A DNA stretch of 64,000 bases from Halalkalicoccus sp. CGA53 (GCF_036429475.1 NZ_CP144125.1:2869521-2933520), one strand, 5' to 3'; shown: positions 16,930 to 47,562, counted from the first letter of the stretch. Program-made: numbers and translations. The notes: a model not told the origin generated them from the letters alone.

Positions 16930-18069
16930 ATGGACGTGGGACGCTCCGGGTCCGCTGTTTTGGCGAGAGGTGTCATCGTACTCCTCGGGGGCGTGTACGT
17001 CGCTCTCGCGGCCGGAGTGCTCGTAGGACGGGTCGTCTGGAACGCGCCAGTCGAGACCACTCCGGTGGAGTTCGCGCTGCTGGCCGGTCTCGGTGTCGCC
17101 CTCCTCTACGGTGGCTACCGATTGACACACGTGGACGTCCAGCCCGCGTTCTACCCGACCATCGCGGCCTGGTGTCTCGGTGGGTTCGGGGGGATGCTCG
17201 CCATCCTCCTCCTCTACGACGCCCAGCCGAGTACCAGCGTCTCCTTTTCGGGCGCACCGATCCTCACGGGACTCGGAGCCCTCGCCGGCTACGGCGTGGG
17301 GATCAACGTCGCACGGACACGGGAGTTACGACGGACACGACGGCGGCTCGACGAGACGATAGAACGGCTCCAGACGTCGAACGAACGCCTCGAGCAGTTC
17401 GCCTACGCGGCCTCCCACGACCTCCAGGAGCCGCTACGGATGGTCTCGAGCTACCTGTCCCTCATCGAGCGACGGCACGGCGATAACCTCGATCGAGAGG
17501 GGCTGGAGTTCCTCGAGCTCGCGGTCGACGGTGCCGATCGGATGCTCGGGATGATAGACGGCCTGCTCGTCTACTCGCAGGTCGCCGCGAGCGACGATCG
17601 GTCCGAGCCGGTCGACCTGGACGCGGTGCTCGAGGTCGTACGGTCGGACCTCCGGAGGAAGATCGAAGCGGAGGACGCCGAGATCACGGCGGAGACGCTG
17701 CCCACCGTGGACGGGAAGGAAGAACAGCTCTACCACGTGTTCCAGAACCTGCTGTCCAACGCGATCAAGTACTGCGGTGAGGAGCCACCACGGGTTCACG
17801 TCACCGCCGAGCGCGATTCGACGGAGTGGACGCTCACCATACACGACGAAGGAATCGGTATCGACCAGGAGGACGCCGACTCGATCTTCGAGATGTTCCA
17901 ACGGATCCACAGTCGTGAGGACAGCACCGGGTCGGGAATCGGTCTCGCGATCTGCGAACAGATCGTCGAACGCCACGGCGGCGAGATATGGGTCGACTCC
18001 GAACCCGGAGTCGGCTCGTCGTTCTCGTTCACCTTACCGGCCGCCTCCGGGGGTGATCGCGATGCGTGA
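16930..18069 (+). CDS. Membrane-bound sensor histidine kinase
   Basis: A 379-residue sensor kinase. Residues 1-130 hold four hydrophobic segments (for example VIVLLGGVYVALAAGVLVGR and FALLAGLGVALLYGGYRL), with no PAS or GAF domain. A short coiled coil (RRTRRRLDETIERLQTSNER) leads into the HisKA box FAYAASHDLQEPLRMVSSYL, with the phosphorylated His near residue 165. The ATPase domain follows with the N box NLLSNAIKYC, G1 HDEGIGIDQ, the F box and G2 STGSGIGLAICEQIVERHGG. It probably senses a membrane-linked or redox signal. The stop overlaps the response-regulator start by 8 bases, so the two form a two-component pair. Confidence 0.93.
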   Translation: MDVGRSGSAVLARGVIVLLGGVYVALAAGVLVGRVVWNAPVETTPVEFALLAGLGVALLYGGYRLTHVDVQPAFYPTIAAWCLGGFGGMLAILLLYDAQPSTSVSFSGAPILTGLGALAGYGVGINVARTRELRRTRRRLDETIERLQTSNERLEQFAYAASHDLQEPLRMVSSYLSLIERRHGDNLDREGLEFLELAVDGADRMLGMIDGLLVYSQVAASDDRSEPVDLDAVLEVVRSDLRRKIEAEDAEITAETLPTVDGKEEQLYHVFQNLLSNAIKYCGEEPPRVHVTAERDSTEWTLTIHDEGIGIDQEDADSIFEMFQRIHSREDSTGSGIGLAICEQIVERHGGEIWVDSEPGVGSSFSFTLPAASGGDRDA

Positions 18070-18999: not shown

Positions 19000-19079
19000 A
19001 TACGGGCGGTTGTAACCGATTACCGGTGATCGCCGACCCGTACTGGCTATCGCCGGTACGAGACTGAGACCGCCCGTAT
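19000..19079. repeat. 80-base nested inverted repeat at the 3-prime end of the beta-propeller gene
   Basis: The outer arms ATACGGGCGGT (19000-19010) and ACCGCCCGTAT (19069-19079) are perfect. They enclose a second, imperfect pair: TACCGGTGATCGCC near 19021 and GGCTATCGCCGGTA near 19045. The right outer arm reaches the first base of the TGA of the minus-strand gene. It may form the 3-prime end of that mRNA (terminator or stabiliser) or be the end of the hairpin-rich element. Confidence 0.6.
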
Positions 19080-20413
19080 CAGCCCTCTATCACGCGGACG
19101 CCGATGCCGTGGAAGTCGCTGTCGGGGTTCCCATCGTCCGGCTGGACGACCTCGCTGATCGCCCTTGACTCCACGTCGATCACGGAGAAACCGGGCGTCT
19201 CGCCGGTCGCGGCGTGCGGGTCGCCCGAGAGCGGGTTCGGCCCGCGGAGCGTGACGAACTTGTATCGCCCGTCCGGCGAGCCCCACATGATGTCCGGCGC
19301 GGGGCCGTAGTCGGGGACCTCCTCGATCACCTCGTCGGTCCCGGGGTCGATCACGAGGCCGTCGTCGGTCTCGCGGTTCAGTATCCAGAACTCGCTCTCG
19401 TCGGCGGTGAACCAGAAGCCGTGGGCGTCGTAGCCCCCGCTGTCGCGAGAGACGTCCTCGTGGGAGTACTCGCCCTCGACGACCTCGTCCGTCTCGGGGT
19501 CGATCGGGCGGTGTTCCTCGGTGTCGATGACGTACCACTCCCCGACGCCGCCGGTCGGCTCGTGGTTCGACGGCGCGCCAGCGGTGAGATAGAGCTTGTT
19601 CTCGCTCGGGTGTGCCATCGTCCCGCAGTTCGCGCGGACCTCGCCCGGCGCGAACGCCTCGACGACCTCGAAGGAGTCGTAGTCGACGATCACGACGCCG
19701 GCGTTGTCGATGCCGGGGCCGAGGGTGTGATAGGAGGTGCCGTTCGAGTAGTCGTGACAGATCGGCCGGAGTTCGCCCTCGTCGTCGAGGTCGAACTCGT
19801 CGATGCGGTCGGCGACCGGGCCGGCCTCGACGACGTGGATCTCGTCGACGATCGAGAACTCCTCGTTCTCGAGGTCGGCGTCGATCCGCTTGATCGACCC
19901 CTCGCCGATGACGTCGACCTGGATGTACTCGTCGTCGGGGGTGAAGCCCGCGAAGTGCGTCCCCGGTCCGGTCGGGCAGGCGCCGACGAGTTCGCGGTCC
20001 TCGGTCCGGAAGACGAGGGTCGCGGCCCCCGCGGTGCAGGCGACCGCCGCGTACTCGTAGTCCGAGGAGAAGTCGACCATGTGCGGGACGTTGCCGCCGG
20101 ATTCGGTTTCGGCCAGCCCGGCGACGTCGATCTCGTCGAGGAGTTCGAACGAGTCCTCGCCGTCGGGTCCGTAGATGTAGCCCGTGTCCGTGCCCTGGTC
20201 GAACGCCCAGACCTCGTACTCAGCGTCCGAGCCCTCGTCGTCGGCCTCCCGCTCGTCGTCTTCGTGGTCACCGTCGTCCTCGTCGTCGGCCTCCTCGCCG
20301 GCGCTCGCGACGGCGTCGGGTCCGGGCTCGCCGCCGACACAGCCCGCGAGGGCGATGCCGCCGACAGCTACCCCACCGTGCAGGAACCGGCGTCGAGTCG
20401 TGTGTCTCGACAT
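19079..20413 (-). CDS. Tat-exported beta-propeller lipoprotein
   Basis: A 444-residue secreted lipoprotein. The start MSRHTTRRRFLHGGVAVG carries a twin-arginine motif and the lipobox LAGC with Cys25, followed by an acidic linker of about 40 residues. The body repeats beta-propeller style blades with YVTN/cytochrome-d1-like phrases (VPHMVDFSSDYEYAAVACTA, THFAGFTPDDEYIQVDVIGE, DYGPAPDIMWGSPDGRYKFV). Such proteins bind ligands or partners at the cell surface; no heme or catalytic motif is visible. The ATG at 20413 lies 28 bases from a TATA-like CTTATACG, which supports this start over MRGNY at 20428. It is divergent from the peroxidase-like gene and probably belongs to the same functional cluster. 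Confidence 0.82.
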   Translation of the reverse strand: MSRHTTRRRFLHGGVAVGGIALAGCVGGEPGPDAVASAGEEADDEDDGDHEDDEREADDEGSDAEYEVWAFDQGTDTGYIYGPDGEDSFELLDEIDVAGLAETESGGNVPHMVDFSSDYEYAAVACTAGAATLVFRTEDRELVGACPTGPGTHFAGFTPDDEYIQVDVIGEGSIKRIDADLENEEFSIVDEIHVVEAGPVADRIDEFDLDDEGELRPICHDYSNGTSYHTLGPGIDNAGVVIVDYDSFEVVEAFAPGEVRANCGTMAHPSENKLYLTAGAPSNHEPTGGVGEWYVIDTEEHRPIDPETDEVVEGEYSHEDVSRDSGGYDAHGFWFTADESEFWILNRETDDGLVIDPGTDEVIEEVPDYGPAPDIMWGSPDGRYKFVTLRGPNPLSGDPHAATGETPGFSVIDVESRAISEVVQPDDGNPDSDFHGIGVRVIEG

Positions 20414-20436
20414 GTAGTTCCCTCGCATCTTCGACA

Positions 20437-20444
20437 CGTATAAG
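20437..20444 (-). promoter_or_regulatory. Candidate TATA box of the beta-propeller gene
   Basis: On the minus strand this reads CTTATACG, 24-31 bases before the ATG at 20413, the spacing of a leaderless transcript. Confidence 0.55.
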
Positions 20445-20457
20445 ACTGCCGTTCCGG

Positions 20458-20487
20458 GGCGTTTCGAGCGCCGGAAACGCCGGTTTC
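20458..20487. promoter_or_regulatory. Candidate operator between divergent metal-cluster promoters
   Basis: GGCGTTTC, 8 bases, GAAACGCC gives perfect 8-base arms at 20458-20481, and GAAAC-GCCG-GTTTC overlaps it at 20474-20487. Further GGAAACG and CCGTTTCG words follow at about 20500 and 20550. The array lies between the two outward TATA boxes, where a shared repressor or activator would bind. The regulator is unknown. Confidence 0.45.
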
Positions 20488-20571
20488 GCACGAGATAGCG
20501 GAAACGACTGTCATGTGTCGCGGGTGTCGGCAATCCTTGCCGTTTCGTGTGTGAAGACCTCCGCGGTGAAC

Positions 20572-20580
20572 AGGTATAAT
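20572..20580 (+). promoter_or_regulatory. Candidate TATA box of the DyP-like operon
   Basis: AGGTATAAT is centred about 30 bases before the ATG at 20606 and is the most TATA-like word in the spacer. Confidence 0.55.
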
Positions 20581-20605
20581 TCCGTTCGACGTGTAGGGTG
20601 AGACG

Positions 20606-21889
20606 ATGACAGAGCGGGCGGGACTGACGCGACGCGGGTACGCGAGGGCGCTCGTCGCAGCCGGTGGAAGCGGCGCGCTCTCTGCGTGTCTCGACGAGTT
20701 CGGCGAGCGCGAGATCCCGGGCGGTGTCGAGCAACGAGCGGATCTCCCGGAACGCCAGCACGCCTGGAACGCGGTCTGCGAGGTCGACGACGACGGCAAC
20801 GTCCGCACGCCGCGTCACCACGTCCTGCTCTCGCTCGCGCTCGACCGCGAGGGCGAGCCGACGGCAGAGGACCGAAGGCTCCTCGAAGAGGCGCTCGAGA
20901 CGCTCGAACGCGCCTACGAGTGGAGCACCGAAGGACTGCTGTTCACCGTCGGCTACGTCCCCGGCTACTTCGAGCGTTTCGGCGAGGGACCCTCGGGTGT
21001 CGACCTCCCCCAGCCGACGGCGCTCACCGACTTCGAGGAGCCGGAGTTCGACGCGGGGGACCTCCTGCTCCACCTCACGAGCGACCACGAGCAGGCGGTC
21101 CTCGAGGCCGAGTCCGCGCTGATCGAGGGGCACGACGAGGCCAACGGCGTCGAGATGGAACGGGGGCTGGAGGAGGCGTTCTCGGTCGACCTCCGACGGT
21201 CGGGGTTCGTCGGCGAGGGCCTGCCGGCAGGGAAACAGGGGGACGACGAGGTGCGTGGGATCCCCACCTCCGAGCCGATCCCGGAGGAGGCGCCCTTCTT
21301 CATGGGGTTTCGCTCCGGCTTCAGGGAGAGCCAGGCGAGCGAGGACCGGGTGACGATCGAGGAGGGGCCGTTCGCGGGCGGGACGACCGAACACCTCTCG
21401 TCGATGACGCTCCAGCTCGACGTCTGGTACGAGCAGGACACCCACGCCCAGCGTGTCGCGAAGCTGTTCAGCGCGGAACACGCCCGCGAAGACACGGTCG
21501 GCGAGTACGGCGAGTCGCTCTCGGACTCGAGCGGTCTCACCGACGAGCGGATCGCGGCGACCGCGGAGGACGCGCGCACCGAGGGAATCGTCGGCCACGC
21601 ACAGAAGGCCGCACGTGCCCGCGAGGACGGCGAGCCGCTGTTGCTCAGACGCGATTTCAACACCGTCGACGACGGTCGACCCGGGCTCCACTTCCTCGCG
21701 CTCCAGCGCGAGATCGAGGAGTTCGTTCGGGTCAGGGACGCGATGACCGGAGCCGACCTGGCAGGAGGAGGCGTCGGCCAGACGCTCAACAACGGCATCC
21801 TCCAGTACCTGTTCGTGAACCGCCGGGGGAACTTCCTCGTCCCGCCCAGATCGAGGAGAGCGCTGCCGACGCCCGAGGGGGAGGGGTGA
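20606..21889 (+). CDS. Tat-exported DyP-type heme peroxidase-like lipoprotein
   Basis: A 427-residue protein with twin arginines (LTRRGYARAL) and a lipobox-like LSAC ending at Cys28. The body fits the dye-decolorising peroxidase (DyP/EfeB) fold: DLLLHLTSDHEQAVLEAESA, a GFRSGFRESQ region where the usual G-x-x-D-G motif lies, MTLQLDVWYEQDTHAQRVAK, the proximal-histidine region GIVGHAQKAARARED, RRDFN and GLHFLALQREIEEFVRVRDA. The distal GxxDG motif is altered, so peroxidase activity may be lost or changed. Bacterial EfeB acts in ferrous or heme iron uptake, which fits the P19-like gene downstream. First gene of a three-gene operon. Confidence 0.75.
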   Translation: MTERAGLTRRGYARALVAAGGSGALSACLDEFGEREIPGGVEQRADLPERQHAWNAVCEVDDDGNVRTPRHHVLLSLALDREGEPTAEDRRLLEEALETLERAYEWSTEGLLFTVGYVPGYFERFGEGPSGVDLPQPTALTDFEEPEFDAGDLLLHLTSDHEQAVLEAESALIEGHDEANGVEMERGLEEAFSVDLRRSGFVGEGLPAGKQGDDEVRGIPTSEPIPEEAPFFMGFRSGFRESQASEDRVTIEEGPFAGGTTEHLSSMTLQLDVWYEQDTHAQRVAKLFSAEHAREDTVGEYGESLSDSSGLTDERIAATAEDARTEGIVGHAQKAARAREDGEPLLLRRDFNTVDDGRPGLHFLALQREIEEFVRVRDAMTGADLAGGGVGQTLNNGILQYLFVNRRGNFLVPPRSRRALPTPEGEG

Positions 21890-21971
21890 ATATTGCCGCA
21901 TTCGAGTTCGGAGATCGGCCGATCGGAAAAAGGTGAACGCAGAGTGTGTACGAAATGAACGGAGCGAGCCG

Positions 21972-23366
21972 ATGAACCGTCGCCAGTTGCTCTCGCGCGC
22001 GGGCACCCTCGGCGCGGTCGCGTTCGCAGGCTGTTCGGATCCGACCGAGGAGGAGACGCCCACCCCCGAGGAGGACGACGTGATCCCCGAGTTCCCCGAG
22101 ATCGAGGAGCCGCCCGATCGGGTCTACCTCCCGACGCACAGGGAGGGGATGGAGGCGTACGAGACGCTCGTAGGGGAGGAGGTGGCGGTGACGCCGATGC
22201 TGACCTACCCACACCCGTTCTGGATCGTCGACGGGACGAACGTCGAACGGGTCGAGCCTACGGAGGACGACGAGGTCCACCTCATGGCGACGGTGTGGGA
22301 CGTTGAGTCGGGGCTCGTCCTCCCGATGGACGCTGGCCTGCACGTCGAGATCGAGCGAGAGGGTGACCTGATCGACGAGCGGGTCCCCTGGCCGATGCTC
22401 TCCCAGGAGATGGGCTTTCACTTCGGCGACAACGTCCCGCTCGATGGCGACGGTCGCTACGAGGTGCGGGTGACGACGAGCCGGATCAACATCGAGAAGA
22501 CGCGCGGCTTCGAGGAGCGATTCGAGGAGGGCGAACGCTTCAGCTTCGAGTTCGAGTTCGACGACGCGTTCAGACAGCGGGTCGTCGACCGGATCGAGTG
22601 GCTCGACGAGGACCGGTGGGGAGAACCGGGCGCGCTCTCGCCGATGACCGATAACGACGGCCACGATCGGGGAGACGACCACGGTTCCGGGAACGACGAT
22701 CAGGGGGATCGGGACGATAACGACCGGAGCGACGTCCCCTACGCGCGAGCCCCCAGGGTCGAGGAGGTCCCCGGGACGCACCTGCTCGACCCGGAGACTG
22801 GGGAGCCGTCGACGAGCGGCGACGGGGTGATCGTGGTCTCGCTCGTCGGGAGGCCCGACGCGGAGGCGTTCTTCGGACTCGACGTCGGCGACGACCTCCC
22901 CACGACGGACGAAGACGAGGGGGAACCGCTCGGAGAGGAGGCGTACCTGATCGTCTCCCCACGCTCGCCGTACAACCGGGTGCCGCTCACCGAGATGGCG
23001 CTCTCGGTCGAACACTCGCGTGAGGGCGACGACCTCGCGGAGGAGAGGCTCTCGCAGACGATCGACTCCGAACTGGGCTTTCACTACGGCCTCGCGCTCT
23101 CGGACGTCGCCGCGGGGGACGACCTCTCGATCGAGATCGACACGCCGCCACAGACCGCGCGGCACCAGGGCTACGAGACGGCGTTCGTCGAGATGTCTCC
23201 AGTCGATCTGGTCGTTCCCGACGAGTGGGGCGACGGTGAGGAGGCCGAGGACGGCGACGACGCGGAACCGGACGCGGACGAGGAGGGAGAGGAGGTTGGC
23301 GAGACGGAGGACGACGCCGACGAGACTGACGACGGAGACGACGAGGACGAGGGGAGCGAGGAGTGA
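21972..23366 (+). CDS. Duplicated P19-like metal-binding lipoprotein
   Basis: A 464-residue protein. MNRRQLLSRAGTLGAVAFAG with Cys21 is a Tat lipoprotein signal, which is why this ATG is chosen over one 13 codons upstream. The body appears to hold two copies of a beta-sandwich domain of the type seen in P19/Tp34 iron transport proteins: the first contains MLSQEMGFHFGDNVPLDGDG near residue 160, the second QTIDSELGFHYGLALSDVAA near residue 360. An Asp/Gly/His-rich linker (near residues 235-260) separates them and a long Asp/Glu tail ends the protein. P19-type proteins bind iron or copper outside the membrane and feed an uptake permease; no permease is present here. Confidence 0.75.
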   Translation: MNRRQLLSRAGTLGAVAFAGCSDPTEEETPTPEEDDVIPEFPEIEEPPDRVYLPTHREGMEAYETLVGEEVAVTPMLTYPHPFWIVDGTNVERVEPTEDDEVHLMATVWDVESGLVLPMDAGLHVEIEREGDLIDERVPWPMLSQEMGFHFGDNVPLDGDGRYEVRVTTSRINIEKTRGFEERFEEGERFSFEFEFDDAFRQRVVDRIEWLDEDRWGEPGALSPMTDNDGHDRGDDHGSGNDDQGDRDDNDRSDVPYARAPRVEEVPGTHLLDPETGEPSTSGDGVIVVSLVGRPDAEAFFGLDVGDDLPTTDEDEGEPLGEEAYLIVSPRSPYNRVPLTEMALSVEHSREGDDLAEERLSQTIDSELGFHYGLALSDVAAGDDLSIEIDTPPQTARHQGYETAFVEMSPVDLVVPDEWGDGEEAEDGDDAEPDADEEGEEVGETEDDADETDDGDDEDEGSEE

Positions 23367-24193
23367 AGAACCGACGGGGGCTGCTGGCGCTCGCGGGCGG
23401 AGCGATCGTCGGCTCGGCGGGCGTCGCGAGCGCGGGTGACAACCTCACCGTCCTCCAGTTCGCCGAGAGCGAGATCGAAGCCGAGAGCGGCGAGGTCCTC
23501 GCGCTCGACGTGCTCGCGCGGAGCCACGGCGGCTACGGCGACTCGGCCGTCGCCTCGATCGAGTTCGAGATCCACACCGACCCGGCGGCGATAGCGATCA
23601 CCGAGGTCAAGGCGGGACCCTGGATGGAGGGCGGGGACGCCGAGGTGGTGACCGAGACGGCGTTCGACGACGGTGTCGTCTCCGTCTCGCAGACGCGGGA
23701 GCCGGTCGGCGACGGTATCGCCGGGGCCGGCAGGGTCGCGACGGTCACCGTCGTGGTGAGCGAGGGCCTCGGCCCGGCCGAGGCCCTCCTCGAGTTCGAC
23801 GGGAGCGAGGTGATGCTCACCGACCGGTACCCGCAGCCGGTCGTCGAGCGCCCGGCGCGGATCGTCGTCGACGGCGGCGGGAAGGAGTTCGCGCACGTCG
23901 ACTCGGAACCGGGCGTGACGACGCCGGACGACGAGGGAGAGGGGACGACGGAGGGGGCCGACGCGAGGACAGGGAGCGACGGTGATGACGGGTCAAAGGA
24001 CGACGCGGAGGGAGTCGACGACGGTGACGCCGGATCGGATGATGGCGCGGAAGGAGCGAACGACGATGACGACGGCGGAGAGGGCGAGGCGGGTACGTCG
24101 GACGATCAGACGGGGTTCGGCACCCTCGCCGCTGGCGGGGCGCTCGGGCTGGTGCTCTGGCGGTTCGTGCTCCGTGAGGACGATCGGAGCTGA
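23363..24193 (+). CDS. Membrane-anchored exported protein with a cohesin-like domain
   Basis: A 276-residue protein, starting with GTG that overlaps the previous stop (GTGA). MKNRRGLLALAGGAIVGSAG is a Tat-like signal without a lipobox. Residues 25-170 look like a cohesin/dockerin-partner style beta sandwich: GEVLALDVLARSHGGYGDSA, VASIEFEIHTDPAAIAITEV, VATVTVVVSEG. An Asp/Gly/Glu-rich stalk of about 60 residues leads to one C-terminal membrane helix (TLAAGGALGLVLWRFVLRED). It is therefore predicted to be held on the outer face of the membrane. Function within the cluster is unknown; it may act as a scaffold for the two lipoproteins. Confidence 0.72.
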   Translation: MKNRRGLLALAGGAIVGSAGVASAGDNLTVLQFAESEIEAESGEVLALDVLARSHGGYGDSAVASIEFEIHTDPAAIAITEVKAGPWMEGGDAEVVTETAFDDGVVSVSQTREPVGDGIAGAGRVATVTVVVSEGLGPAEALLEFDGSEVMLTDRYPQPVVERPARIVVDGGGKEFAHVDSEPGVTTPDDEGEGTTEGADARTGSDGDDGSKDDAEGVDDGDAGSDDGAEGANDDDDGGEGEAGTSDDQTGFGTLAAGGALGLVLWRFVLREDDRS

Positions 24194-24241: not shown

Positions 24242-25606
24242 TCAGTATCGGTAATCGGACTCCGAGAGCTGGACGTACCGGCCCTTTCGGTACCTGAACT
24301 TCGCCTTCCGGTACGACGTGTAGAACTTCGCCGCGCCGAGGCCGGAGCTGAGCGCCCCCCAGTCGATCGGGCCACCGCCGCGTTTCTCCAGCATCGTGCC
24401 GATCGTTCGGAACGTCCGGTCCCAGTCCGCGGGCTCGTAGTCGGCGACGACGTCGGCCATGGAGACGTTCCGGAGGATCTCGTCGCCGATCGCCGCCTTC
24501 CAGGCCTCGTTGTACTCGTCGAGACGGCCGCGTGCGGCGAGGTCACCGGCGATCGCACCCGACCGAACCGCGACGTGGTAGCCGCCCTCGTGGAACGCCG
24601 AGGTGGTTCCCATCGCCCCGCCGGCGACCGCGATCCCCGCGTCCGTGGGCGAGTCGATCGGCCGCGTGGAGCTGATCGGGTAGGACTCGACGCCGCCGCG
24701 CTTTCCACGCTCTTCGACCAGCGGGAAGTCGGTCTCGACGTCGTACTCGTCGCCGAACTCGCGTTCGAGCAGCCGCCGGATGTAGGCGCCGCCCGTCGGG
24801 ATGCGCTCGTCCTCCGGTCGGAGGAGGTCGTACGCCTCCCTGTTCTCCACCGCCTCGATGTCCATCCCGATCGGCATCGTCAGTCCGATTCTAGCGATAC
24901 CGTCGTCGTTCGGGAAGATCCAGGGGTAGGCGGTCTTACCGGGGATCAGCCCCCACCAGAACGTGATGACGTCCTCCTCGAACAGTTCGGGGGGCATCCG
25001 GCGGTGTTCCTGGTAGGCGATGTGGTTCGCCCGTCGCGGGCCGAGCACCTCGGAGGCCTTCTTCCCCTCCGGGAGGAGCCGGTCGAGCACGCCCATCGTC
25101 ACCGTCCGTTGTGGGCCGTCTGCGAGGATCATCCTCCCCGCCTCTATCTCCGACCCGTCGGCGAGGTGGAGGACGTGGCTCTCGGTGTCCGATTCGACCC
25201 GGCGAACCCCCGTTCCGACGCGGTACGCCGCGCTGGACGCCTCCGCGCGCTCTCGCATCCAGTCGTCCATCCGCGCGCGCTGGAAGGTGAACCCGAAGTT
25301 CGGGTACGACGAGTCCATACCGGTGTCCCGCAACGTACAGCGCTCGGTCGGACCGACGAACCGTGCACCCGAGAGCTCCTGGAGGATCACGTCCTCGGGG
25401 AGCTCTCCCGGATCGATTCCCATGATGTCGACCCAGTAGTCGAGCATCCCGGCGGCGTCGGTCGAGTCCGGGCCGAGTCCCTCACGGTCGGCCCGCGGGA
25501 CCCCCTTCTCCACGACGACGGCGTCGGCGCCCGCCTCCGCTGCGGCGTGGGCCGCAGCCATTCCCGCGGGGCCGCCGCCGACGATCGCGACGTCGGCGCG
25601 TTCCAT
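24242..25606 (-). CDS. Geranylgeranyl-reductase-family flavoprotein
   Basis: A 454-residue FAD enzyme of the geranylgeranyl reductase family. The N-terminal Rossmann motif is VAIVGGGPAGMAAAHAAAEA and the second FAD contact is GIAVAGGAMGTTSAFHEGGY near residue 320. RMILADGPQRTVTMG and WWGLIPGKTAYPWIFPNDDG match the family. Archaeal members saturate the isoprenoid chains of lipids or quinones; haloarchaea carry several paralogues and this one has an unusual C-terminal KFYTSYRKAKFRYRKGRYVQ tail, so lipid reduction is not certain. A TATA-like element sits 27 bases upstream of the ATG. Divergent from the amidohydrolase gene. Confidence 0.8.
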   Translation of the reverse strand: MERADVAIVGGGPAGMAAAHAAAEAGADAVVVEKGVPRADREGLGPDSTDAAGMLDYWVDIMGIDPGELPEDVILQELSGARFVGPTERCTLRDTGMDSSYPNFGFTFQRARMDDWMRERAEASSAAYRVGTGVRRVESDTESHVLHLADGSEIEAGRMILADGPQRTVTMGVLDRLLPEGKKASEVLGPRRANHIAYQEHRRMPPELFEEDVITFWWGLIPGKTAYPWIFPNDDGIARIGLTMPIGMDIEAVENREAYDLLRPEDERIPTGGAYIRRLLEREFGDEYDVETDFPLVEERGKRGGVESYPISSTRPIDSPTDAGIAVAGGAMGTTSAFHEGGYHVAVRSGAIAGDLAARGRLDEYNEAWKAAIGDEILRNVSMADVVADYEPADWDRTFRTIGTMLEKRGGGPIDWGALSSGLGAAKFYTSYRKAKFRYRKGRYVQLSESDYRY

Positions 25607-27878: not shown

Positions 27879-27896
27879 TTGTGTCTGTGTACACAA
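27879..27896 (+). promoter_or_regulatory. Candidate operator of the vapBC pair
   Basis: TTGTGT, 6 bases, ACACAA, with the inner perfect palindrome TGTGTACACA at 27886-27895. It ends 8 bases before the antitoxin ATG and follows a TATA-like TTACACTTT. VapB proteins usually repress their own operon by binding such palindromes. Confidence 0.5.
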
Positions 27897-27904
27897 GCAC
27901 ATTC

Positions 27905-28165
27905 ATGGGGACGAAGACGATCGGCCTCGACGAGGAGGCGTACGAGCGCCTGAGAGCGCAGAAGCGGGAGGGAGAGAGCTTCAGCGACACGGTGAAGCGG
28001 ATCACGGACGAAGTCTCCTCGGACTGGCGGCGGGGGTTCGGCTCGCTCTCGGAGGAAGAGGGTGAACGGCTCGAAGTGGTCATCTCGGCTCAGCGTAAGC
28101 GTGCGAGTGCTGCACTCGCTGTCAGACAGGAGCGAGCGCTCGACGCGGCGACCGACGAGGAATGA
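27905..28165 (+). CDS. VapB-type antitoxin
   Basis: An 86-residue protein of the haloarchaeal DUF217/VapB-like family. GTKTIGLDEEAYERLRAQKR is a short ribbon-helix-helix-like strand and helix, and ESFSDTVKRITDEVSSDWRR matches the antitoxin pattern. The C-terminal helix SAQRKRASAALAVRQERALD would wrap the toxin. The ATG at 27905 is used; the longer GTG reading would run through the operator palindrome. The stop overlaps the toxin start (ATGA), typical of toxin-antitoxin pairs. Confidence 0.86.
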   Translation: MGTKTIGLDEEAYERLRAQKREGESFSDTVKRITDEVSSDWRRGFGSLSEEEGERLEVVISAQRKRASAALAVRQERALDAATDEE

Positions 28166-28563
28166 AGCTGCTTGACACCACCTTCCTGATCGGCTACGAG
28201 CGCGGGCAGGAGGTGATTGGAGCGTACCTCAAGCGGAACGAGGACCGGGAGTTCGTCACTTCGACGATCTGTCTGAAGGAACTAGCGGTCGGAAAGCACC
28301 TCGTCGGATCGCCTACCCGGGCGGACCTGACGGCGAACTACGGCTGGCTCCGAATCGTCCCCTTCACGCTCGACTATGCATACGAGGCGGGAGCACTCGA
28401 AGCGGCGCTCCATGACGATCCCGGCGTGAACCGGGACGGGATCGACTCGCTTTCGGCCGACGCGTTGATCGCCGGCACTGCCCGATCACTCGGCGCGACC
28501 GTCGTGACGAGAAACGTCTCCGATTTCGAGCGGTTCGAGGGCATAGCCGTCGAGTCGTACTGA
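28162..28563 (+). CDS. vapC: PIN-domain ribonuclease toxin (VapC family)
   Basis: A 133-residue PIN-domain protein. The first acidic residue is in MKLLDTTFLIGYERG, the second in STICLKELAVGKHL, and the third and fourth in DGIDSLSADALIAGTARSLG and TVVTRNVSDFERFEGI; together these form the four-acid metal site of PIN nucleases. VapC toxins cleave tRNA or rRNA and stop translation when free of antitoxin. It overlaps the antitoxin stop by four bases. Length is typical. Stand-alone chromosomal location near vital genes suggests stabilisation or stress control rather than plasmid maintenance. Confidence 0.9.
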   Translation: MKLLDTTFLIGYERGQEVIGAYLKRNEDREFVTSTICLKELAVGKHLVGSPTRADLTANYGWLRIVPFTLDYAYEAGALEAALHDDPGVNRDGIDSLSADALIAGTARSLGATVVTRNVSDFERFEGIAVESY

Positions 28564-44225: not shown

Positions 44226-46337
44226 CTACTTCCGTCGGCCGTTGATCCCGGCGGCGAGCCCGCGGAGCTTCTCAATCGGCGCGGGCTTGCCGACGCTCGC
44301 CTGCGTCAGGTAGAGGACGACGACGATACCGAGCGCCCCCATGCGGATCGTCAGCGACTCGTGGACCATGATCACCGTCCCGAGCGCGAAGAAGCCGAGG
44401 CGCATCCCGTACGTCCCGGGCCGACCGAACGAGAACCGGTAGTTGAGCCCGTGGATGATCGCGATCGCGCCGACGAGCGTGATCAGGCCGGTCAGGAGTC
44501 CCGCCGACGTGATCTCCCCCGAGACGATCTCGGGGTGGTAGATGAACGTGAAGGGCAGGACGAACAGCGGCGCGGAGATCTTGATCGCCTCGAGACACGA
44601 GCGCCAGAAGTTCGAGCCGGCGATCCCGCAGGCGACCGCCACACAGGTGGCGATCGGGGGGGTCAGCCCCGCGAGGATCGCCGCGTAGAAGACGAAGAAG
44701 TGTGCGGAGAACTCCGGGAGGAAGAACTGGTTGATCAGCGTCGGCGCGATCAGCAGCGCGACGACCGTGTAGGCGGCGGTCGTCGGCATCCCGAGTCCGA
44801 GCAGGATACAGATGATCATCGCCATGATCGCGGCGAAGATCAACACCCCGCCGGAGAGGTCCATCAGCGTGAGCGAGATCGCCGTCGGCACCCCCGTCGC
44901 CATCAGCAGGTCGACGACGCCGTTGATCGCCGCGAGGATGATCGCCACGGGCGCGAGCACGACGACGCCCTCGCGCCAGCCGTCCCAGGTCTCGCGGATC
45001 GTCCCGGCGAACCGCCAGAAGACCGCGCGGGCGTTCCCCGTGTCGAAGGCGACCTTCGCGACCGGGATACCGATCCCGAGCGCCATCATCGACACCGCGG
45101 TCCACAGCGCCGCGGTCATCACCGTCCACTGGACGATGCCGAGGATGTAGATGAGGACGGCGAGCGGGACGCCGTACTTGATCCCCTCCAGAACTAGTTC
45201 GCCCCGGGTGAGCGCGTCGTCGAAGAACTCCGAGAGGTCCTGGTTCTCGATCTGTGGCCCGGCGGCGTAGTGGACCGCGACGACGATCGCGATCACGAGG
45301 ATCGCCGCGGGGATCAGCCCCGCGACGAGCACGTCCGCGTAGGTGATCCCCGTGATGAGCGAGGCCATGATGAACGCCCCGGCGCCCATCACCGGCGGGA
45401 GCACCTGTCCCGAGGTGGAGGCGACCGACTCGATCCCCGCGGCCGTCTCGGGCTTGATGCCGTTCTCCTTCATCATCGGGATGGTGAACGAGCCGGTCAT
45501 CCCGGCGTTGGCGGTCTGCGAGCCGTTGACCGAGCCGATCACCGCGCTCGCGACGACCGCGGTCTGGGCGACCCCCGAGTCGATGTACTTCGCCGAGCGT
45601 ACGGCCATCCGCAGGATGAGGTCGAACGCGCCGTAGGCCTTCAACAGCCCGGCGTAGAGCAGGAACAGCGCGATCCACGCCGCGACGAGCTGCGTGAGGA
45701 AGCCGTAGAACCCGCGGACCCCGATGACGAGGATCCTGAGCACCCGCTCGTAGGAGAGGCCGGTGTGGCCGAGCGTGCCGGGGACCCAGCTCCCGAACAG
45801 CGCGTAGCCGATCCCGGCGAGCACGACGACGAGGAACGTCATCCCGAACGCGCGCCAGGTGAGGTAGATTATCACGAGCGTGAACGCGACCGCCAGCACG
45901 TACTCGTGATCGAGGGCGAAGCCCCGCCGGTCGGTGTACAGCGCCTCGAAGTTCGACCAGATGTAGACCGTCGTGACCGTGACGATCACCGCACAGACCA
46001 CGAGGACGAGCGTGTCGAGACGGTTTCCGGGCGCGACCAACGCGCGGAGGTCCTCACCGATGTACCGGTTTCCCCCGCCGACGGACTGGGCCATCTCGTG
46101 GAGGATGTAGAGCAGCAAGATCCCCCCGAGAAACACCGCGCCGAACTGCGCCCGCGCGATGAGCTGGTATCTGGCGTAGGCGATCACGTAGAGCCAGAGC
46201 GGGACCGTGAGCAGCGCCAGCACCGACCAGAGCGTCACGTGGCGTTTCACGTTCTCCGCCGCGAGCTTCTCCCTGAGAACCGTCACGATCGGGCGTTCGA
46301 GGAGCTCCGAATCGATCTTCTCCGTTTCTGCTGTCAT
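44226..46337 (-). CDS. TRAP transporter fused permease (TAXI-type, DctQM)
   Basis: A 703-residue membrane protein fusing the small (DctQ, 4 segments) and large (DctM, 12 segments) permease subunits of a tripartite TRAP carrier. Family patterns: VIGSVNGSQTANAGMTGSFT near residue 270, GVIPPVMGAGAFIMA-like GQVLPPVMGAGAFIMASLIT, and LLGLGMPTTAAYTVVALLIA with GLTPPIATCVAVACGIAGSN near the C-terminus. TRAP systems import organic acids with the sodium gradient, which suits a halophile. Partner of the binding protein gene 85 bases upstream on the same strand. Confidence 0.93.
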   Translation of the reverse strand: MTAETEKIDSELLERPIVTVLREKLAAENVKRHVTLWSVLALLTVPLWLYVIAYARYQLIARAQFGAVFLGGILLLYILHEMAQSVGGGNRYIGEDLRALVAPGNRLDTLVLVVCAVIVTVTTVYIWSNFEALYTDRRGFALDHEYVLAVAFTLVIIYLTWRAFGMTFLVVVLAGIGYALFGSWVPGTLGHTGLSYERVLRILVIGVRGFYGFLTQLVAAWIALFLLYAGLLKAYGAFDLILRMAVRSAKYIDSGVAQTAVVASAVIGSVNGSQTANAGMTGSFTIPMMKENGIKPETAAGIESVASTSGQVLPPVMGAGAFIMASLITGITYADVLVAGLIPAAILVIAIVVAVHYAAGPQIENQDLSEFFDDALTRGELVLEGIKYGVPLAVLIYILGIVQWTVMTAALWTAVSMMALGIGIPVAKVAFDTGNARAVFWRFAGTIRETWDGWREGVVVLAPVAIILAAINGVVDLLMATGVPTAISLTLMDLSGGVLIFAAIMAMIICILLGLGMPTTAAYTVVALLIAPTLINQFFLPEFSAHFFVFYAAILAGLTPPIATCVAVACGIAGSNFWRSCLEAIKISAPLFVLPFTFIYHPEIVSGEITSAGLLTGLITLVGAIAIIHGLNYRFSFGRPGTYGMRLGFFALGTVIMVHESLTIRMGALGIVVVLYLTQASVGKPAPIEKLRGLAAGINGRRK

Positions 46338-46422
46338 GGTACGTCGTGTGTCCGTGTGAGCGTGTCACAGGGTTCGGATACGGTCACTCGACCGTAGAAC
46401 GGCAATAAGCTACTGGTTCGGG

Positions 46423-47562
46423 CTACTCGGCCTCGCCCCGCGTCCAGCCGTCGTCCCAGACGTCGTTCTCCTCGTAGAAGTCGGCGACGCCGGGATGGAC
46501 CTCCAGATCCTCGAGCACCGCCGCGGTCATCGTCTCGGGGTCGGAGTGGTCGAGCGTCGTCGGGTCGGACTCCTGGAGCGTCTCCCAGTGTTCGCTCGCG
46601 ATCCGGGCGAGTTCGTGGGTCGCGTGGGCCGGGACGTCCGGTCCGAACGCCCACTGGCCGCCGAGCGCCCAGCTCACGACCTGGTCGGTCACCTGATCGA
46701 CGTCCTGCTGGAAGCCGTAGGGCTCGAACTCCGAGAGCAGCGCCCCGGGGGTGTCCTCGATCGTCTGTCGGAACTCGTCGTCGACCTCGATGACGTAGAG
46801 CCGTTCGTTGCTCCTGACGTCGACCTCCTGGCACCAGCCGGCGAGTTCGATCCCGTTCGCGCCGTAGATACAGAGCGCGTCGACTCTGTCCTCCTCGACC
46901 GCGCCGGGGATGTCGTCGGTGTTCGCGTTGTTGATCTCGTTCTGGTCCCACATGTCCGCCTCGCGGATGATCTCCTCGGTCAGCAGCCGGGTCCCGAAGC
47001 CCGGCTGGATCGGGTAGATCGTGTAGCCGCCCTCGCGGAGGTCCTCGGTCGACTCGATCCCGCTGCCCTCGAGCGCGACCCAGAAGATCTCGAGGCTCGT
47101 GAAGATCCAGCCCTGCATCGGGAGGCTCTCGACGGGGTCCTCGTCGAACGGGTCCTCGTCTTCCATCGCCTTCGACAGCGAGTTGTTGTCGACGCCGATG
47201 CTCGAGAACTCCCCCGAGTCGAACTCGTAGAGGTTCGCCGTCCAGCCGTCGGTCTCCTGGACCGTGACGTCGACGAAGTCGCTGTGCTCGCTCGCACCCC
47301 GTGCGAGCGCCTGCCCGGCGAGCTGTGTCGCGCTCCCGCTCGAGGTGCCCGCGATCGTCACCGTCACGTCCTCCTGATCGCCGTTCCCGTTCGCGTCGTC
47401 GTCGGCGTCTGCCGCGTCGTCGGCGTCTGCCGCGTCGTCCGCGGCGGCCGCGTCGTCGTCCCCGTCGTCGTCCCCGTCGAGGCAGCCGGCCATCGTGATG
47501 ACGCCGAGCGTCGCCGCCCCCTTGAGCACGTCCCGCCTGTTGCGACTGTTACCAGTGTACAT
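46423..47562 (-). CDS. TAXI-family TRAP transporter solute-binding lipoprotein
   Basis: A 379-residue exported binding protein. MYTGNSRNRRDVLKGAATLG is a Tat signal with lipobox MAGC (Cys27), then an Asp/Ala linker. The TAXI fold is shown by VTVTIAGTSSGSATQLAGQA, DVTVQETDGWTANLYEFDSG, NNSLSKAMEDEDPFDED, YTIYPIQPGFGTRLLTEEII and VDALCIYGANGIELAGWCQE. TAXI proteins bind dicarboxylates, amino acids or related organic anions. A TATA-like GTTTATAC lies 26-34 bases upstream of the ATG, so the transporter genes have their own leaderless promoter. The linker DNA has an 18-base tandem duplication. Confidence 0.93.
   Translation of the reverse strand: MYTGNSRNRRDVLKGAATLGVITMAGCLDGDDDGDDDAAAADDAADADDAADADDDANGNGDQEDVTVTIAGTSSGSATQLAGQALARGASEHSDFVDVTVQETDGWTANLYEFDSGEFSSIGVDNNSLSKAMEDEDPFDEDPVESLPMQGWIFTSLEIFWVALEGSGIESTEDLREGGYTIYPIQPGFGTRLLTEEIIREADMWDQNEINNANTDDIPGAVEEDRVDALCIYGANGIELAGWCQEVDVRSNERLYVIEVDDEFRQTIEDTPGALLSEFEPYGFQQDVDQVTDQVVSWALGGQWAFGPDVPAHATHELARIASEHWETLQESDPTTLDHSDPETMTAAVLEDLEVHPGVADFYEENDVWDDGWTRGEAE
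47401..47436 (-). repeat. 18-base tandem repeat in the binding-protein linker
   Basis: Two perfect copies of an 18-base unit (47401-47418 and 47419-47436) plus a partial third encode the repeated Asp/Ala linker behind the lipidated cysteine. Slippage at this point would change linker length without breaking the frame. Confidence 0.65.

Follow-up and report, generated by a model that had tools for sequence, protein, structure and literature searches.

Gene content of the locus

The locus described here lies at positions 19079-24193 of a 64,000-nucleotide stretch of the genome of Halalkalicoccus sp. CGA53 (GCF_036429475.1, NZ_CP144125.1:2869521-2933520; hereafter, the window), and comprises four genes for exported proteins, gathered around a single divergent promoter region of 192 base pairs (bp) (20414..20605), as read from the sequence and its translations. 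TATA-like boxes are found in this region near both starts. The gene transcribed on the minus strand (20413..19079) encodes PROP, a 444-residue lipoprotein of the twin-arginine translocation (Tat) pathway, with a His-rich beta-propeller of the lactonase/YVTN type. On the plus strand, a DyP-like Tat lipoprotein of 427 residues (family DUF7405, PF24152; 20606..21889) is followed by a P19-like Tat lipoprotein of 464 residues (DUF7350; 21972..23366), and then by COH, a 276-residue surface protein with a cohesin domain and a C-terminal anchor (23363..24193). The gap between the DyP and P19 genes is 82 bp, and the start of COH overlaps the stop of P19 by 4 bp; this spacing suggests that the three genes are read as one transcript. 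A conserved operator was looked for in the divergent promoter, and none was seen beyond the nearest relatives.

The N-termini of PROP, DyP and P19 each carry a twin-Arg motif and a lipobox Cys (TRRRFLHGGVAVGGIALAGC, TRRGYARALVAAGGSGALSAC and NRRQLLSRAGTLGAVAFAGC, respectively), and alignments show both features to be kept in 97-100% of relatives. In COH, a signal peptide and an extended acidic stretch are present, and a transmembrane (TM) segment lies at the C-terminus. The gene limits and these motifs thus agree with the original prediction, made from the window alone, of three Tat lipoproteins and a membrane-anchored protein around one divergent promoter.

Structure and key residues of the four proteins

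The DyP-like protein matches Pfam DUF7405 with an E-value of 6.4e-152. Its score against Dyp_perox_N is 13.4 bits, below the cut-off of 20.4, and a search of six genomes with this profile, the window's own included, returned no match. The protein was modeled with AF2 from an alignment of 86 sequences, with a pLDDT of 92.1 and a pTM of 0.90; an earlier model, from 12 sequences, was poor (pLDDT 48) and was not used. When the better model was submitted to Foldseek, the top 50 rows were all structures of the DyP family. VIA-align superposed it on EfeB chains 6jbn, 2y4d and 3o72 over about 310 residues, with Z-scores of 26.8-27.4 and deviations of 3.2-3.3 Å, and gave a Z-score of about 27 to DtpA as well. 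By hhalign, most of the chain can be aligned with EfeB of E. coli (E 2.7e-4). A confident model therefore assigns the DyP fold to this protein.

Across 131 aligned sequences, the residue at the proximal heme-ligand position, His331, is invariant and pairs with a DyP His. Also invariant are the distal Arg348, the adjacent Arg349, and Glu246; the LRRxF motif of the family pairs with LRRGY of EfeB. The GxxDG motif, however, is replaced by GFRSG (234-238), which stands opposite GFKDG of EfeB in the hhalign alignment. Its catalytic Asp is missing from all 131 sequences, where position 237 is Ser in 103, Ala in 27 and Thr in one; this loss had gone unremarked in the original prediction. According to a review (PMC8197335), this Asp is critical in several DyPs, which are crippled by its loss, while for DypB and DtpB the Arg counts more; a reference title in the same review states that in DypB it is the Arg, and not the Asp, that is essential to peroxidase activity. 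Given the DyP fold, with His331 and Arg348 kept and the Asp gone, heme binding is likely, and the protein may or may not act as an ordinary peroxidase. Because the distal Asp is naturally absent from DUF7405, this DyP family lends itself to asking which residue is essential. In two other genomes (G114, C1:1559155-1563507; G285, C53:55298-66268), copies of DUF7405 stand in rows as fragments, some of them interrupted by stop codons, in what appears to be local amplification and decay.

The P19-like protein matches Pfam DUF7350 (E 2.6e-43) and the solved structure of FtrA in the PDB (E 5.9e-6); its score against Iron_transport (PF10634), 20.6 bits, is slightly under the cut-off of 21. It consists of a P19-like domain 1, a linker rich in His and Asp, and a DUF7350 domain 2. 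By hhalign, domain 1 aligns with bacterial P19 proteins taken from annotated P19-cupredoxin-FTR1 rows (E 2.5e-10), and also with domain 2 (E 2.2e-9); by its sequence, that is, the protein is a tandem P19. In the alignment to bacterial P19, VHLEAD stands opposite VHLMAT, and NDGPHYGDN opposite EMGFHFGDN. In this alignment, His103, Met142 and His150 of domain 1 stand at three probable copper-ligand positions of P19. In domain 2, His398 is within an RH...ET motif that resembles GRHVDKET of P19.

The acidic Mn/Fe patch of P19 is formed by Glu3, Glu44, Asp46 and Asp92 (PMC9174327). At the positions of the last three, the protein of the window has Met105, Thr107 and Met147. These acids are likewise not kept across the family, in which residue 105 is Met in 71 of 71 sequences, residue 107 is Thr, Ser, Val, Ala or Ile, and residue 147 is Met in 70 of 71.

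Matches of PROP to library profiles are weak and of the propeller type. Two family alignments were made, one of 36 members and one of 33. In the former, His111, 153, 220, 229 and 331 are present in 36 of 36, His400 and 435 in 35 of 36, and Cys126, 219 and 263, all in the mature chain, in 36 of 36. With its propeller-type repeats and conserved His residues, PROP resembles the lactonase/YVTN propellers, among them the clade III nitrous-oxide reductase L-NosZ, which weakly matches 32 of the 33 relatives in the second alignment (best E 1.9e-8). Identification of PROP as NosZ or L-NosZ was considered and rejected: the NCBIfam match is consistent, yet scores 19.1 bits against a cut-off of 700, and the alignment with haloarchaeal NosZ is confined to the Tat signal peptide, with none over the propeller.

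COH of the window scores below the Pfam cut-off for Cohesin (PF00963; E 0.0026), and nine of nine relatives tested score above it. The PGF-CTERM profile (TIGR04126) scored in two of these nine, at loci L180 and L223; the C-terminus of the window's protein has a TGFG sequence and the TM segment, without a match to this profile. With its cohesin domain and a putative C-terminal anchor of the sorting type, COH resembles the PGF-CTERM surface proteins of haloarchaea that carry cohesin domains, but differs in being encoded with DyP and P19. The fold model, the hhalign and PDB matches, and the Cohesin scores of the nine relatives show that the labels first given to these proteins, namely DyP-like, P19-like and cohesin-like, were right.

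Conservation and genomic context

DUF7405 is found in 261 of 292 haloarchaeal genomes, and in none of the non-haloarchaeal genomes of a 148-genome sample of the phylum. DUF7350 is found in 254 of the 292. The two lists of genomes were compared by hand: both families are present in 253 genomes and neither in 30, with DUF7405 alone in eight and DUF7350 alone in one (Fisher p 2e-32, a value that is only indicative, as the genomes are related). Haloferax volcanii has matches to both families, and so offers a genetically tractable case for studying the supply of copper or heme redox partners beyond the archaeal membrane. Within 78 named DyP loci, P19 is located no more than two genes from DyP in 66, in 64 of them on the same strand; because the pair is kept in 66 of 78, its adjacency is more than chance.

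The full arrangement, with PROP divergent from DyP-P19-COH, recurs at loci L032 (L187 being on the same contig), L033, L034, L180 and L223. By the labels of the classification tool, it spans four families, represented by the window (f1), G099 with L180 (f3), G104 with L187 (f4) and G141 with L223 (f8). The gene order is therefore kept in other haloarchaea, and, together with the near-universal DyP-P19 pair, this bears out the proposal of a distinct haloarchaeal surface system. PROP and cohesin genes are also found away from DyP: PROP occurs with P19-COH at L177 and L222, and with COH alone at L186. A different kind of propeller, of the PQQ/FG-GAP type, is encoded near DyP-P19 at L059, L061 and L069, with a c30 membrane protein also nearby at L059 and L069.

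Adjoining the exported set is a gene on the minus strand for a flavoprotein of the geranylgeranyl-reductase family (24242..25606), orthologues of which, 59-90% identical, are found near the set in other genomes; at L180 and L223 the reductase gene is beside COH, and its product is 59-60% identical to that of the window. In 24 of the 78 loci, menA/menB is at most five genes away from DyP, and in many Natrialbaceae DyP-P19-COH lies between menB and menA, inside the menaquinone operon (for example, at L037, L039 and L041). A linkage of this kind outside Natrialbaceae was also considered. At L223 and L061 the set adjoins a menB-like gene, but this shares no more than 28-29% identity with the gene of the men operon, and probably encodes a generic enoyl-CoA hydratase; we therefore do not claim the linkage beyond Natrialbaceae.

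The genome of CGA53 encodes two more P19/DUF7350 lipoproteins (L205, C2:1180500-1193500; L206, C2:2192500-2205500). One of these paralogues is beside SCO1, thioredoxin, a c30 membrane protein, a regulator of the HVO_0163 (wHTH) type and DUF7471; the second comes after the gene for a propeller lipoprotein and before DUF2243. The fetched P19 loci consist of the named DyP loci and of hand-chosen propeller and P19 regions, with the same genome represented twice in a few cases, so that the following are counts and not frequencies: within five genes of P19, a SCO1-like protein is encoded in five loci, thioredoxin in five and a DsbD_2-type protein in three, while the c30 membrane protein occurs in thirteen. 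These SCO-like, thioredoxin and c30 neighbours move the interpretation away from iron and toward copper or the assembly of oxidase.

Partners of the known iron-uptake systems are lacking. FTR1-type permeases (EfeU) and Peptidase_M75 proteins (EfeO/EfeM) were each found in none of 59 haloarchaea, including CGA53 for the permease, whereas control genomes were positive; neither a transporter nor a heme importer recurs beside DyP-P19 in the loci compared. The absence of the permease and of EfeO, first noted for the window, is thus general among the haloarchaea tested, and we conclude that the module belongs to neither the Efe nor the Ftr systems. The DyP-like protein resembles EfeB of EfeUOB in its exported DyP fold, its aligned proximal His and distal Arg, and its metal-binding partner, but is a lipoprotein, scores below the Dyp_perox cut-off, lacks the GxxDG Asp and occurs without EfeU or EfeO in the genomes tested. 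Similarly, the P19-like protein shares a domain type and, probably, three copper-ligand positions with FtrA, P19 and FetP, but has two tandem domains, a His-rich linker and replaced iron-site acids, and is paired with DyP rather than with the FTR1 permease of FtrABCD and FetMP. The module is, in short, an uncharacterised variation on EfeB and P19 components that haloarchaea conserve; in the literature searched, no mention of DUF7405, DUF7350 or DUF7471 was found. DyP and P19 are taken to mark ferrous-iron uptake. In haloarchaea the pair is near-universal and retains both folds and the association, but it has lost the permease, the iron site of P19 and the distal Asp of DyP; to annotate its members as 'iron transporter' or 'peroxidase' would therefore be misleading.

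A proposed copper/heme redox module and its alternatives

Our preferred interpretation, with a probability of about 0.45, is that the proteins of the locus, tethered to the membrane at the outer cell surface, form a copper/heme redox module specific to haloarchaea, rather than a system for ferrous-iron uptake. At its core would be two lipoproteins: one of the DyP fold, binding heme but missing the distal Asp, and one with two P19-type domains, its copper positions kept and its iron-site acids exchanged for Met and Thr. This core would be extended here by the His-rich propeller and the anchored cohesin-type protein. P19 would take up extracellular copper through His103, Met142 and His150, probably with Met105 and Met147, and through the linker rich in His. 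With heme bound at His331 and Arg348 taking part, the DyP-like protein would then carry out a one-electron or peroxidatic redox step, either on the metal of P19 or with electrons from the quinone pool, and the metal would be handed on to respiratory-chain cuproproteins outside the cytoplasm. The propeller and the cohesin protein may act as partner and scaffold, perhaps through physical interaction. This interpretation draws on the DyP fold with its His and Arg, the P19 homology with its exchange of acids for Met, the lack of FTR1 and Peptidase_M75, the DyP-P19 co-occurrence, the P19 paralogues near SCO1, thioredoxin, DUF2243 and a propeller, and the closeness of DyP to menB/menA. In a more specific form, it is possible, albeit doubtful, that this is an undescribed extracytoplasmic copper system, in which a Met-converted tandem P19 and an Asp-less DyP jointly take up copper and redox-load it for the respiratory chain, with some lineages adding a His-cage propeller as a new protein for copper or another metal.

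Several observations weigh against the copper/heme interpretation. The linkage to SCO and thioredoxin is mostly with P19 paralogues, not with the DyP-linked copy, and that to the men genes is almost wholly confined to Natrialbaceae and may reflect ancestry. The fourth copper ligand of P19, which we take to be His132, aligns in domain 2 only; and we regard the mapping of residues onto C. jejuni P19 as a lead of good strength, short of proof. EfeB-type DyPs are, moreover, tied to iron. Lastly, to judge from the title of Chan et al. 2020, cited in PMC10783030, iron transport by bacterial P19/FetP requires the copper site, and so the kept copper ligands do not alone make copper the cargo.

The main alternative is ferrous-iron acquisition: at the cell surface DyP and P19 would oxidise Fe(II) and retain it, with another permease in place of FTR1/EfeU. 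In bacteria, EfeB and P19/FtrA serve iron uptake, the Iron_transport and FtrA matches recall them, and the two haloarchaeal proteins co-occur and adjoin; but the absence of FTR1 and M75, the replaced iron-site acids and the lack of a recurrent transporter make this unlikely, and an iron-starvation study of H. volcanii (PMC11349517) names, in the part available to us, other transporters. The analogy with ferrous-iron uptake in the original prediction is therefore not supported as it was put, the more so with P19 paralogues near SCO1 and thioredoxin; from its list of iron, copper or heme, copper is now favored, though the list is not narrowed to one. Less probable still is protection against peroxide or through quinol-linked redox chemistry, in which a surface DyP-type peroxidase would be fed by menaquinol, with P19 supplying its metal. 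The His and Arg of the DyP fold, the precedent of DypB, the nearby men genes and a reductase neighbor kept in several genera are all consistent with it, but the Asp whose loss cripples other DyPs is gone throughout the family, and the men linkage is bound to one lineage.

That the four genes are independent neighbors without joint function we hold to be improbable: propeller and cohesin genes do occur apart from DyP, but DyP and P19 are jointly present or absent in 283 of the 292 genomes, and PROP recurs with P19 and/or COH even where DyP is missing. Most improbable of all is a heme-capture or deferrochelatase module that would strip iron from external heme. Such an activity has been reported for EfeB, and is disputed, according to PMC8197335; no heme importer recurs nearby, and P19 would be an odd partner for it.

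Elsewhere in the window, a membrane histidine kinase (HisKA, HATPase_c) is encoded at 16930-18069, near the end of the propeller gene. A small gene pair at 27881-28563 has, by eye, a likeness to a VapBC-type antitoxin and PIN-domain toxin, and the large membrane protein beside a Tat lipoprotein at 44226-47562, likewise judged by eye, resembles a fused TRAP-type transporter accompanied by its binding protein.

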